Shown here in pieces: positions 14,876-20,372 of a DNA stretch of 64,000 nt. The translations under genes were made by a program, and so were the position numbers. The DNA comes from Phycisphaeraceae bacterium (GTDB lineage: Bacteria > Planctomycetota > Phycisphaerae > Phycisphaerales > SM1A02), in assembly GCA_019636735.1 (NCBI GenBank), contig JAHBWY010000004.1, positions 1 to 64,000 on the forward strand. The letters run 5' to 3'. Below the pieces are notes generated by a model. The model saw nothing but the letters and a program-made list of their open reading frames with translations, did not search any database and was not told the origin of the DNA. The stretch's first letter is position 1. Each line of letters opens with the position of its first letter.

Positions 14876-16810
14876 TCAGGGGCAGGGGCCCCACAGGCCG
14901 AGCAGCAGTGAGATGTCGGCGCCGTTCACCACGCCACTCCCATCGAGATCGAGTGGTGAGCCCGGGCCGACGACGCCCCATGAGCCAAGGAGAATGCTCA
15001 GATCGGCGCCATTCACCATGCCGTCATTATTCAGGTCGGCGTCACAGTCGAGCACCGTCATGCCGAGAGGCACCAGGGTGTCAGGATGAATGTTCACGAA
15101 GCCCGGGCCGTTGTGAAGCGCCGGGACAACATTGGAGCGCTTGGTCAACATTCCAAGCCGCTTGCCGCAGGGCTTGCCCTGGATCGGTGAATCTCCATCC
15201 AGACCCCATACGCCGTTGACCTTCGCGTACTCGCGCACGGAGCCGTCGCAGGCGATCCACAGGCGCTCTCCGCGATCCGCGATGACCGATGACGGGATGC
15301 AGGACCCGAGCGGAATCGACTCAACGAAGATCTGCCCGCTGTCCGGGTTCAGCAGCACGCTGAAGAGGGAGTTGCTCGCCGAGGTGAAGAACCACGCCCG
15401 ACCAGTCTCTGGATTCACACTCACGGAGCCATCGCCGGCCATGGGAATGTTCTGAGGCACGATGATGCTCGAAAGCTGGTTGCCGAGGGTTCGATCGAAC
15501 CGGACGATTCGGCGCTGCGGAATCGAGAGGATGGTCACGGCGTCCAATGTGTCGTCGTAGGCCAAGGCTGACACGGGAGGGCTGTTCGAGGTGGAGCTGA
15601 TCAGGGCGCCCTCATCGTTGAGTCGATAGAGCTTGTCTCCGTCGCTCACATAGATGTCGCCCCGGCGACCGACCGCCATGCTCCGCGGGTCGAGCGAGGC
15701 ACCGTCGCCGAAGGCGGCGAGTGCACCATCAAACAGGTCGAGCCGCTGCATCGATCGAGTTCCATTGGGAGCGATGGTGAGCAGCAGAGCGGCGTTGAAA
15801 TCAGGGTGGAAGTCGAGGGCGCGCACATCCATGTCAGCGGGAATGGAGAGCGTCCCCCCGATCGGGCTTGGAGAACCGGCGAAGGAGAGGTCGATGGACT
15901 GCACCAGGCCCGGCAGACCTCCGAACGAGGGGAAGAATGTGATGCCGAGCAGCGGACGCACGGCGAAGAACGAGTCAACGATCCGATACAGGCCGTCCCC
16001 TGAGGGATGGTTCAGAACGCTGACAAGGGCGAGGAAGTCGGCACCCTCGTCGGGTCGAATGTAGACAACCATGTTCGTGTAGTTGGCCACGACATTCTTG
16101 AATGCGGACTGCGTGGCGTTGGCGGGGTCGTCGGCGGGATCGCGGTATTGAATCTGCCGTGTGGTGCCCCACTTCTCGATCCCCGTCAGGGTGACCGCGT
16201 GGCCCCCGGTGCGATTGAGAAGCGGCACGCCGTTGATCACGCCGATCTGGGTGTATCGGCCATACGCAAACTCAACAATCCAGCCGGAGCAGGCAACCGC
16301 ACCCATCTTCTCCACGGTCGGCCAGTATGACGGCTGAAGCCACTTGTGCTGCCAAGAGAGAATCGGCGAGCTGCTGAGCCACACCGATGCTCCGTTGACC
16401 CAGCCCGTGCCCCCGGTGCCACCGGTGGGACTGGTGTTCATGAGCGCACCCAGTGTTTGAATCGCCGAGGTCGCGTCGTTGTATCGGAGGTTCGACTGCC
16501 AGAACCCGGGGCCTGGAGGGGTGTTCGGGAAGCCGTTGTTGGCGGCATAGGCGAAGAGATTCACCGCCCCGGTCGGAACGCAGTACATGGCACCGTTGGC
16601 GGGCAGCCCAGGAGTGTTGCCGGAGGGTGAGCGCCGCTGGTCAAGGTCAGGCATGAATTTGATGCGGTACTTGATGCCGACTCCGCCGGGAAGGTAGAGC
16701 GACTCGACGACGCTCGACTCCGCTCGGGGCGCAATGGCAGTCGCCACGACAGTGGCGAGGGCAAGGGACGCAAGCTTCGCACGGCAGACGGTGATGGGAC
16801 GGCGGGACAT
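14876..16810 (-). CDS. Secreted protein with C-terminal dockerin-like repeats
   Basis: This 644-residue protein has a clear signal peptide (basic start, hydrophobic core, cleavage near APRAESS). I start it at 16810, which has a GAGAAGAGGCG Shine-Dalgarno region upstream; the frame continues 28 codons further without support. Residues about 30-260 may form a papain-like or peptidase C39-like fold, suggested by a Cys in GAMYCVPTGAVN and a His in RTGGHAVTLTG; that is tentative. The middle resembles beta-propeller repeats. The end holds two dockerin-like Ca-binding loops (DLNNDGMVNGADLSILLGSWG and a second copy). In planctomycetes these ends occur on many secreted proteins and probably bind calcium; no cohesin is seen here. 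Confidence 0.82.
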   Translation of the reverse strand: MSRRPITVCRAKLASLALATVVATAIAPRAESSVVESLYLPGGVGIKYRIKFMPDLDQRRSPSGNTPGLPANGAMYCVPTGAVNLFAYAANNGFPNTPPGPGFWQSNLRYNDATSAIQTLGALMNTSPTGGTGGTGWVNGASVWLSSSPILSWQHKWLQPSYWPTVEKMGAVACSGWIVEFAYGRYTQIGVINGVPLLNRTGGHAVTLTGIEKWGTTRQIQYRDPADDPANATQSAFKNVVANYTNMVVYIRPDEGADFLALVSVLNHPSGDGLYRIVDSFFAVRPLLGITFFPSFGGLPGLVQSIDLSFAGSPSPIGGTLSIPADMDVRALDFHPDFNAALLLTIAPNGTRSMQRLDLFDGALAAFGDGASLDPRSMAVGRRGDIYVSDGDKLYRLNDEGALISSTSNSPPVSALAYDDTLDAVTILSIPQRRIVRFDRTLGNQLSSIIVPQNIPMAGDGSVSVNPETGRAWFFTSASNSLFSVLLNPDSGQIFVESIPLGSCIPSSVIADRGERLWIACDGSVREYAKVNGVWGLDGDSPIQGKPCGKRLGMLTKRSNVVPALHNGPGFVNIHPDTLVPLGMTVLDCDADLNNDGMVNGADLSILLGSWGVVGPGSPLDLDGSGVVNGADISLLLGLWGPCP

Positions 16811-17003
16811 TGGTAGATCGCCTCTTCTCTCTTCACATCGATCGGATCCTGGGTGCGGGCCTGATGGCGTGTTGACGCGCACCTTGAATCCCAAGATCGG
16901 GCGGCTCTCGCTCCGACCTCACGGCGCTTCAGGGGAACACCCACCTGAAGGATCTCAGGATTGAAAGCGCAGACTCCCCGCCGAACCCCTCGAGATTCCG
17001 GAG

Positions 17004-17498: not shown

Positions 17499-20372
17499 GT
17501 GAACCTGCGAGTGCCTTCCTTCGTCGCGGCCGCGGTGCTGGTCGGAAGCGCCGCTGCGGCGACCGTTGATGTCTATGTCTACAACCTCGAGTTCAGCATC
17601 AATCCACCCGGCGGGCCGGTGGTGGATCCGGTGATCGCTGTGGGTGACACCGTGCGCTGGGTGCATCTCCAGGGCAATCACACGACCACCTCGGTCGTCG
17701 GCAGCGTGGAAGTGTGGAACGCGCCGATCAGTTCAAGCAGTCCGACCTTCTCCCACACCTTCACGCATGCAGGCGTCTTTCACTACTACTGCATTCCTCA
17801 CGGTTTCGACAACGGAGATGGCACCGCGGGAGGAATGGCCGGCATCGTCACGGTCCTCGATGCCCCGTTCGGCGCGTGCTGCCTTGCCAATGGAACATGC
17901 GATCTTCTGACCGAGGCTGCCTGCATCGCCGCAGGGGGAGCGTTCCAGGGAGTTGGGAGCGCCTGCGCCGCGGCCCTGTGTGCCGCGCAGCCGATGACCG
18001 TCGAGTTTCAGGCGTCGCAAGACAACATCCTGTATGAGTCGGCCACGGGGTCCGTCAGCAATGCGCTCGGACAGTACCTCTACGCAGGCAATCAGAACAA
18101 CGGCGCGAAGAGGCGGCCGGTGGTTCGATTCGACACTTCTTCGATCCCTGCTGGAGCGACGGTCCAGTCAGCCGCCATGACGCTCTTCTGCAACCAGTCT
18201 CAGGGTGCGGCCACGGCTGTGACCGCTCACCGGCTCCTCGCCTCGTGGGGAGAGGGGACCTCTCAGGCTGGCGGCAACGAGTCCAGTGGAGCGGCGGCTA
18301 CGGTGGGCGATGCGACCTGGTTGCACCGCTTCTTCGCGACGACCTTCTGGTCCTCGCCAGGTGGCGACTTCGTCGGAGCCGCCAGTGCGTCGACGGTCAT
18401 CGCCGCAAGCAACTCGAGCTACACCTGGTCAGGCGCCGCCGTGGTTGCGGATGTTCAACATTGGGTTGACATGCCCGACACCAACCATGGCTGGATTCTC
18501 TTCGGCGATGAGGGCAGCAGCTCAAACACCAAGCGATTCCAGAGTCGCCAGGGCGCAGCGGTCGCCACACGACCGAAGCTGACAGTGACCTACATGCCAC
18601 CATCGCCTACCGGAGCATGCTGCTTCTCCGATGGAGGATGTGAGTCGACCACCGAGCATGACTGCATGATGGCGGGTGGCGTGTTCCACGGCGCGGGAAG
18701 CGAGTGCGCCAGCGTCGCCTGTGCCGTGGTGCTCGAACCCTTCCTCGTGGAGCTGCCCCGCCCCGGGGTCGCGACGCCGGTGAGTGGAGTTCCCGGAGGC
18801 GCAGCGCATTACGAGATTGCGATGACAGAGCAGATGCAGCAACTGCATCCTTCGCTTCCGCCCACCCGCGTCTGGGGGTACGCGGGCTCGTACCCGGGTC
18901 CGACCATCGAAGCCTTCCGAGGCGAGCCGGTGACCGTCATCTGGAAGAACGATCTCCGGGCCTGGGAGACGGGTCAGCTGCGATCGACCCATGCGCTCGC
19001 CGTGGACACCTGTCTTCATGGTCCCGACATGACGGGCGAGGTTCCAGTGGCGGTGGTGCACCTCCATGGCGGCAAGGTTGCCCACGACAGCGATGGATAT
19101 CCCGAGTATGCGTTCCCGCCCGGATCACAGTCGCCGCTCTACCACTACCCGAACGATCAGCCCGCGGCCACGCTGTGGTATCACGACCATGCGCTGGGAA
19201 TCACGCGATTGAATGTGGTCATGGGTATGGCCGGCTTTTACCTGCTCCGCGATGCGGAGGAGAGCGCCCTCGGTCTTCCGTCAGGCGAATTCGAGATTCC
19301 CATGGCGATCCAGGATCGCTCGTTCCGTGCGGATGGTTCGATCGATTATCCGGAGCACTGGCAAGGGCACTTCTTCGGCAACACGATTCTCGTCAACGGC
19401 AAGGTGTGGCCGTATCTCGAGGTGAAGCGAGGCAAGTATCGCTTCCGACTGCTCAACGGCAGCACGAGCCGGGCCTACACGCTGGCACTCTCCGATCGAT
19501 CGCCCTTTTGGCAGATCGGTTCAGACCTCGGTCTGCTCGAAGCGCCGGTTCAGCTCTCCGAGGTCACCATCCTGCCCGGCGAGCGAGCCGACATGATCTT
19601 CGACTTCGCGTCCTATGACAGCGGTACGGAAGTGGTGTTGCTGAACTCTGCGCCGGCGCCCTATCCGGGCTTCCCCGGCGTGGGCGTTGTTCCCAATGTG
19701 ATGAAGTTCATCGTTGGCCCTGAGAGGGGCCACACGGCGCCGCTGCCAGGCTTCCTGGTGCCGGTTCCGCGCATCGATCCGGGGTCAGCCGTGCGTGAGC
19801 GTGTGCTCGACCTCGCCGTCATGCCAGGATCGAAGTGCCCCGGACATCACGAAGGCATGTGGATGATCGACGGGCGTCACTGGGGTGAGATCACGGAGTT
19901 CCCGGTGATGGGCACCACGGAGATCTGGACCTGGCGCAACGACTCGGGTGTCAGCCACCCGATGCACATGCATCTCGAGCCAACGCAGGTCCTGAATCGT
20001 CAGGCGATCGATCCCGTCTCGGGCGAGCCGACCGGGCCGCTCATACCACCCGCACCGAACGAGATGGGCTGGAAGGACACCGTTGACGCATGGCCCGGCT
20101 ACTTCACGCGAGTCATCGTCCACTTCGATCAGTACCTCGGTCTCTTCCCGTATCACTGCCACATCCTGGAGCACGAGGATCACGAGATGATGCGACAGTT
20201 CAAGGTCGTTCACCCGGGAGATCTCAATGTCGATGGCTTCGTCAACGGGGTGGATCTTGCCATTCTCCTGGGGCAGTGGGGCGCGTGTGCCGACTGCACG
20301 GCTGACATCAACCGCGATGGTGATGTGAACGGAGCCGATCTCGCCATTCTGCTGGGAGGTTGGACGGGCTGA
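17499..20372 (+). CDS. Cupredoxin-DNRLRE-multicopper oxidase fusion with dockerin-like tail
   Basis: This 957-residue secreted protein joins six parts. A signal peptide (1-20) leads to a plastocyanin-like domain (about 22-122) with copper ligands His61, Cys98, His101 and probably Met113. A GACC cysteine motif (126-161) follows, then a DNRLRE-type beta domain (about 168-366), a second GACC motif (372-408), and a CotA/bilirubin-oxidase-like multicopper oxidase (about 412-905). The oxidase has all four copper motifs: HLHG (521-524), WYHDH (560-564), HPMHMH (820-825) and HCHILEHEDHEM (886-897), so the type 1 Met897 axial ligand is present. Two dockerin-like repeats end the protein. I start it at GTG 17499 (GGGAGA Shine-Dalgarno 7 nt upstream); the frame is open much further. 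It should oxidise phenols, bilirubin-like compounds or metals outside the cytoplasm. Confidence 0.9.
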   Translation: MNLRVPSFVAAAVLVGSAAAATVDVYVYNLEFSINPPGGPVVDPVIAVGDTVRWVHLQGNHTTTSVVGSVEVWNAPISSSSPTFSHTFTHAGVFHYYCIPHGFDNGDGTAGGMAGIVTVLDAPFGACCLANGTCDLLTEAACIAAGGAFQGVGSACAAALCAAQPMTVEFQASQDNILYESATGSVSNALGQYLYAGNQNNGAKRRPVVRFDTSSIPAGATVQSAAMTLFCNQSQGAATAVTAHRLLASWGEGTSQAGGNESSGAAATVGDATWLHRFFATTFWSSPGGDFVGAASASTVIAASNSSYTWSGAAVVADVQHWVDMPDTNHGWILFGDEGSSSNTKRFQSRQGAAVATRPKLTVTYMPPSPTGACCFSDGGCESTTEHDCMMAGGVFHGAGSECASVACAVVLEPFLVELPRPGVATPVSGVPGGAAHYEIAMTEQMQQLHPSLPPTRVWGYAGSYPGPTIEAFRGEPVTVIWKNDLRAWETGQLRSTHALAVDTCLHGPDMTGEVPVAVVHLHGGKVAHDSDGYPEYAFPPGSQSPLYHYPNDQPAATLWYHDHALGITRLNVVMGMAGFYLLRDAEESALGLPSGEFEIPMAIQDRSFRADGSIDYPEHWQGHFFGNTILVNGKVWPYLEVKRGKYRFRLLNGSTSRAYTLALSDRSPFWQIGSDLGLLEAPVQLSEVTILPGERADMIFDFASYDSGTEVVLLNSAPAPYPGFPGVGVVPNVMKFIVGPERGHTAPLPGFLVPVPRIDPGSAVRERVLDLAVMPGSKCPGHHEGMWMIDGRHWGEITEFPVMGTTEIWTWRNDSGVSHPMHMHLEPTQVLNRQAIDPVSGEPTGPLIPPAPNEMGWKDTVDAWPGYFTRVIVHFDQYLGLFPYHCHILEHEDHEMMRQFKVVHPGDLNVDGFVNGVDLAILLGQWGACADCTADINRDGDVNGADLAILLGGWTG

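Follow-up and report, generated by a model that had tools for sequence, protein, structure and literature searches.

Within the window, that is, the whole 64-kb stretch of DNA that was analysed, a single open reading frame runs on the forward strand from a GTG at position 17499 to a stop codon at 20372, and begins with a plausible signal peptide. The frame is still open upstream of this GTG, and the start was placed at 17499 because of the signal peptide and of the starts of the homologues. The initial annotation had described one polypeptide joining a plastocyanin-like cupredoxin, two GACC modules, a DNRLRE domain and a multicopper oxidase (MCO); the single frame, the domain matches and the six cysteines found in each GACC module bear this out. 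The features, in the order in which they follow one another along the chain, are as follows:

17499..20372, forward strand: whole gene, GTG start, 957 amino acids plus stop; homologues have signal peptides at the same place
17499..17561, forward strand: signal peptide, residues 1-21, a hydrophobic stretch ending AAA/T; homologues are alike
17562..17861, forward strand: cupredoxin with a type 1 copper site, residues 22-121; amicyanin match in the PDB (E 1.5e-8), ligands kept in 11/11 fused homologues
17808..17834, forward strand: nine-residue insertion DNGDGTAGG between the His and Met ligands of the cupredoxin, residues 104-112; seen in the alignment with amicyanin, with loop variants in relatives
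17871..17981, forward strand: first GACC module with six Cys, residues 125-161; from sequence and alignment
17991..18599, forward strand: DNRLRE domain, a CBM96-like beta sandwich, residues 165-367; NF033679 at 67 bits (family described in PMC9971899)
18612..18722, forward strand: second GACC module with six Cys, residues 372-408; from sequence and alignment
18729..20213, forward strand: three-domain CotA-type multicopper oxidase, residues 411-905; Pfam and PDB matches, ligand alignment and fold superposition
20217..20369, forward strand: C-terminal dockerin-like tag, residues 907-957; PF00404, with NF041540 in the relatives L100 and L101

The copper ligands of the cupredoxin are H61 (17679), C98 (17790), H101 (17799) and M113 (17835), as the initial annotation had correctly numbered them. 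The His, Cys, His and Met stand in the order of a type 1 site in a cupredoxin, and the full set is present in all 11 intact fused proteins. Although the domain matches amicyanin in the PDB, it scores 13.6 bits against Pfam PF00127, whose gathering score is 21.2, and is therefore filed here as cupredoxin-like rather than as a PF00127 member; nor is the amicyanin equivalog TIGR02657 reached (23.8 bits, for a curated score of 110). The H...CxxH...M ligand set and the amicyanin-like loop ends are common to the amicyanin and plastocyanin family, whereas the fusion to other domains and the length of the ligand loop set the window cupredoxin apart. The loop from H to M has 11 residues, which is unusually long, and alignment with the C-x2-H-x2-M of amicyanin places nine of them, DNGDGTAGG, in excess. 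This insertion resembles a calcium-binding loop of the DxNxDG type, and variants of it are found in relatives of the cupredoxin, both fused and standalone.

The oxidase part gives Pfam matches to Cu-oxidase_3 and Cu-oxidase_2. In CotA-type enzymes, the donor is oxidised at the type 1 copper and O2 is reduced to water, and the same is expected of the oxidase in the window. CotA laccase is matched in the PDB with an E-value of 8e-111 over residues 411-906, the only part of the protein that was well tested in fold searches, and the predicted model superimposes on CotA with a Z of 51.9 and 1.7 A over 471 residues, so that the overall CotA fold extends over the three cupredoxin domains. The ligand motifs are H-L-H (521-523), H-D-H (562-564), HPMHMH (820-825) and HCHxxxHxxxxM (886-897). 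All 12 of the copper ligands that the initial annotation had considered complete are present, namely ten His, one Cys and the axial Met (H521, H523, H562, H564, H820, H823, H825, H886, C887, H888, H892 and M897), and they are invariant in 37/37 aligned relatives. With CotA itself, an MCO of the Bacillus spore coat (PDB 1gsk), the oxidase shares about 41-45% identity, the fold and all the copper ligands including the axial Met; CotA, however, is an MCO alone, whereas the window protein adds a signal peptide, the cupredoxin, GACC modules, the DNRLRE domain and the dockerin. Sequence and models thus show that one chain carries both an extra, complete type 1 cupredoxin and an MCO with its full set of sites, for one type 1 and three type 2/3 coppers. 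The earlier statement that both copper parts look active holds as far as intact sites and purifying conservation are concerned.

The DNRLRE domain is recognised by NCBIfam NF033679 (67.2 bits at residues 189-364, for a curated cut-off of 34), and no PDB sequence match was found for the window copy. The CBM96 of the alginate lyase Dp0100 binds alginate and has about 30% identity with members of the DNRLRE family (PMC9971899). The window copy is related to CBM96 through the DNRLRE family only, and by this kinship it may bind polysaccharides.

As regards the C-terminus, Pfam PF00404 is narrowly passed, with 23.6 bits for a cut-off of 22.9. With the GC-type dockerin model NF041540 (curated score 29 bits) the window protein is not listed up to an E of 1, and the relatives L100 (38.9) and L101 (64.8) pass. 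About 95 places in the 3.4 Mb genome (G000) encode dockerin-like C-termini. This genome is 97% complete and gave no match to cohesin PF00963, so that the tag is more plausibly one for sorting or anchoring, specific to the lineage. Cohesin-dockerin "planctosomes" have been proposed in the related Nemodlikiaceae (PMC6461901); for such a model to hold in this genome, the cohesin would have to be so diverged that PF00963 misses it. The type of anchor varies with the lineage (dockerin, T9SS-like tail, MYXO-CTERM-like tail); a homologue named as Eisenbacteria (L108) carries a T9SS-like tail in place of the dockerin-like tag, a finding in favour of surface secretion in every lineage. Surface attachment through DNRLRE and dockerin-like ends, as first suggested, is thus plausible with regard to the dockerin-type C-terminus and the tail of L108, but the DNRLRE domain is internal rather than an end, and docking of the cellulosome kind is not supported, as PF00963 detects no cohesin in the genome. 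A weak dockerin C-terminus is also borne by the neighbouring gene, which lies on the reverse strand at 14876-16894, divergent from the MCO gene, and encodes a secreted protein of 672 amino acids (TTG) for which no other family match was found.

In a survey of about 100 relatives, nine long homologues with this layout were found, the window protein included, and the cupredoxin is present in three of them besides the window protein: L017, L019 and the frameshifted L018. A close homologue of the MCO occurs in 34 of the 397 genomes of the class, and also in other phyla; nearly all the homologues of the class consist of DNRLRE, two to seven GACC modules, the MCO and a C-terminal tail, without a cupredoxin. 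Among contigs from named genomes, 263 stretches encode relatives, of which 80 were fetched (about 10 from OFTM MAGs, presumably the ones of the Oslofjord-tunnel study). An N-terminal cupredoxin was found in 10/80, one being L104, the frameshifted copy of G086, and a C-terminal one in 4/80, all from one Sedimentisphaerales MAG; 69 of the 74 full proteins from these contigs have a DNRLRE domain. Counting the window protein and L017, the N-terminal fusions number 12 (11 intact), mainly from Phycisphaerales MAGs, with one named Lewinellaceae and one named Eisenbacteria, although MAG names may be mis-assigned. The same order was thus recovered in 11 other proteins.

The DNRLRE-GACC(n)-MCO-anchor arrangement is therefore that of a broad family, found in Phycisphaerae and other phyla, which has the same core layout but lacks the N-terminal cupredoxin-GACC unit, the cupredoxin being a restricted addition. 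Since most members lack the cupredoxin yet keep all the MCO ligands, it is not needed for basic activity. Literature searches found no paper describing the cupredoxin-DNRLRE-MCO order or a cupredoxin tethered to a laccase-type oxidase; the architecture, for which the initial annotation knew of no described enzyme, is apparently undescribed. No conserved gene neighbourhood and no donor gene were found beside the fused loci, where the neighbours differ (for instance, atpA beside L100 and L143, and a UDP-sugar dehydrogenase beside L103) and most of the neighbour matches are antisense ORFs of the MCO itself. Two of the genome names call for comment: the MCO genes of L177 (Leptolyngbya sp. PLA1) and L107 (Lewinellaceae Ww534) are near-identical to planctomycete ones or nested within them, and the L177 contig is probably a mis-binned planctomycete. 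Furthermore, in the copy of G086 represented by L104, L066 and L018 (contig RECZ01000085.1), the cupredoxin has a frameshift just before the Met ligand, due to sequencing error or to decay.

The protein may be understood as a secreted, surface-anchored laccase or metal oxidase of the CotA type with its own electron-relay cupredoxin on a mobile tether, a reading in which our confidence is middling and evenly balanced. For a type 1 site that is complete, conserved and borne by the oxidase's own chain, a tethered relay would be the most economical role. The stable recurrence of the order, the retention of all the ligands and the conservation of the cupredoxin speak for it; the many relatives that do without a cupredoxin, the lack of a shared docking surface and the absence of a conserved neighbourhood pointing to a donor speak against it. 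The DNRLRE (CBM96-like) domain would hold the enzyme on a polysaccharide matrix, while the C-terminal anchor would keep it at the cell surface. The cupredoxin would take single electrons from a donor that cannot reach the pocket of the MCO, such as a bulky phenolic compound, a mineral, a metal ion or a second redox protein, and would hand them to the type 1 copper of the MCO, from which they would pass to the trinuclear site for the reduction of O2 to water. The tether would act as a mobile arm and not as part of a fixed docked complex. Candidate donors would be Mn(II), Fe(II) and phenolics. In the Oslofjord-tunnel study, planctomycete manganese oxidases were scored in MAGs from Mn-oxide biofilms with cotA among the markers (PMC10732223), which makes Mn(II) a reasonable candidate, and part of the planctomycete CotA-like family was probably counted there as manganese oxidase.

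The predicted model of the protein has a mean pLDDT of 88.3 and a pTM of 0.66, and supersedes a first one built from 9 sequences (pLDDT 67, pTM 0.50). Its confidence is low in the ligand loop of the cupredoxin, where residues 103-106 and 109-111 fall below a pLDDT of 50. As the second alignment wrongly placed six standalone cupredoxins onto the type 1 domain of the MCO, few sequences underlie the model in the cupredoxin part.

The closest analogy is offered by the three-domain copper nitrite reductases HdNiR and TsNiR, in which an extra type 1 cupredoxin is likewise tethered to a copper enzyme with a type 1 site of its own. In TsNiR the type 1 coppers are about 14 A apart; in HdNiR they are about 24 A apart and the role is disputed, a separation of about 24 A in the N-terminally tethered nitrite reductase being too far for effective transfer (PMC7201279). 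For the tethered cytochrome of a copper nitrite reductase, one report argues for a real redox-partner role (PMC13324648). The likeness is one of mechanism only, given that the catalytic part of HdNiR and TsNiR is a two-domain trimeric nitrite reductase, whereas that of the window protein is a three-domain CotA-type MCO with a trinuclear site, separated from the cupredoxin by about 290 residues of other domains, a spacing that tells against the relay.

All 16 copper ligands (four in the cupredoxin, 12 in the MCO) are kept in 11/11 intact cupredoxin-bearing proteins. Mean pairwise identity within the fused set is 66.8% for the MCO, 62.0% for the cupredoxin, 52% for the first GACC module, 51% for DNRLRE, 48% for the second GACC module and 30% for the tag; the cupredoxin ranks second in conservation, well ahead of the linkers and the tag. 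The window protein, L017, L018 and L019 group as a single clade in the smaller, careful MCO trees (100/99 and 100/96, with four rows). A quick MCO tree of 76 sequences groups the planctomycete fusions, with the cupredoxin-free L109 inside the group, and leaves outside it the MCO of L108, which adjoins that of the Gemmatimonadota MAG L120 (98 SH-aLRT). The DNRLRE tree, on the other hand, unites all 12 cupredoxin-bearing proteins, L108 included (support 97). The conflict between both trees implies that the N-terminal cassette and the MCO of L108 have different histories, the cassette having been kept together on a new MCO. This protein, from a Candidatus Eisenbacteria MAG (contig JAEHDN010000329.1), joins a cupredoxin-GACC-DNRLRE cassette of planctomycete type to an MCO of another lineage; domain-level recombination across phyla would account for its mixed history, a chimeric contig being less likely.

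In L109 and L110, a second DNRLRE-GACC block replaces the cupredoxin (DNRLRE-GACC-GACC-DNRLRE-GACC-MCO), so that different modules can take the position preceding the last DNRLRE. A docking signature on the MCO was also sought and rejected: of 21 clade-specific MCO positions, L108 matches two, and so does its cupredoxin-free sister L120. Such positions therefore reflect ancestry, and no convergent docking surface was found in the sequences of MCOs with a separately acquired cupredoxin. That L108 has no more of these residues than L120 favours a mobile arm over a fixed docked complex. The exchanged block in L109 and L110, the cupredoxin that travels with its DNRLRE and not with the MCO, and the lack of a convergent MCO surface would also suit a passive module in a shuffled secreted chain (DNRLRE, GACC, Ig-like, dockerin), serving for folding, spacing or binding and exchanging no electrons with the MCO. 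Strict retention of the ligands and a mean identity above that of DNRLRE, GACC and tag exceed, however, the needs of a spacer, and we hold such a role to be unlikely, though it is, with copper loading, one of the two main rivals of the relay.

Standalone relatives of the cupredoxin bear dockerin or PEP-CTERM-like tails. In G288, G290, G310 and G326, such anchored cupredoxins occur without a close homologue of the MCO, while in G367 only about 2.7 kb separate a standalone homologue from a sister-group MCO. The former four would fit a general copper-binding role and, since extracellular cuproenzymes need copper after their secretion, the fused cupredoxin might be an arm for capturing copper or loading it into the MCO, or might itself be reduced or oxidised in the course of copper detoxification (CueO/CopA-like). 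Against this, a full type 1 set including the Met, as found in 11/11 proteins, is typical of redox sites and not of chaperones, no copper-resistance genes stand beside the fused loci that were checked, and the relatives without a cupredoxin keep all their MCO ligands. A copper-handling arm is thus an unlikely explanation, slightly more so than the passive module.

It is also conceivable, but much less probable, that the cupredoxin serves a reaction or partner of its own, for instance by accepting electrons from another surface enzyme (a dehydrogenase or copper radical oxidase), while diffusing mediators would link it to the MCO as the final O2 sink. Fusions of cupredoxins with galactose-oxidase-like domains, some including an MCO and some lacking it, are indeed present in G107/PL25a_bin.123, and in G402 a cupredoxin forms part of a long protein, the rest of which may resemble sorbosone/glucose dehydrogenases, but no such domain exists in the window protein or beside it. 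Finally, a spurious fusion of separate genes through faulty assembly or annotation, as the MAG-like assembly in 33 contigs and the frameshifted homologue G086/L104 might suggest, can practically be dismissed, since 11 other proteins, drawn from different assemblies and species, have the same junctions.

The tethered electron relay, for which no description on laccase-type oxidases was found in the literature searches, can be put to the test, because the same oxidase exists in cupredoxin-bearing and cupredoxin-free versions and L108 provides a natural swap. The question bears on the extracellular oxidation of metals or phenolics by uncultured planctomycetes, and the protein is a natural model for connecting laccases electrically with electrodes or with bulky substrates. 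A bolder version, which we put forward tentatively and with considerable doubt, is that of a built-in, mobile blue-copper wire, a cassette that could be plugged onto different CotA-type oxidases and would draw electrons from donors outside their pocket (minerals, Mn/Fe, matrix-bound phenolics), the DNGDGT loop being perhaps calcium-responsive.

Four giant proteins of one Sedimentisphaerales MAG (L169, L170, L171 and L175, PL25a_bin.123) likewise combine a cupredoxin with the MCO, but in a different order, the cupredoxin being C-terminal. These proteins of about 2,700 amino acids, together with those of G107 (L056:6206-14368 and L057:5829-14087), join a galactose-oxidase/GlxA-like domain, FN3 repeats, the same CotA-type MCO, the C-terminal cupredoxin, and PASTA and discoidin-like domains. 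A neighbouring gene, at L056:14754+, combines a galactose-oxidase-like part and a cupredoxin without the MCO. In the giant proteins, the residue that matches the axial Tyr of galactose oxidase, before the His, looks replaced by Glu.
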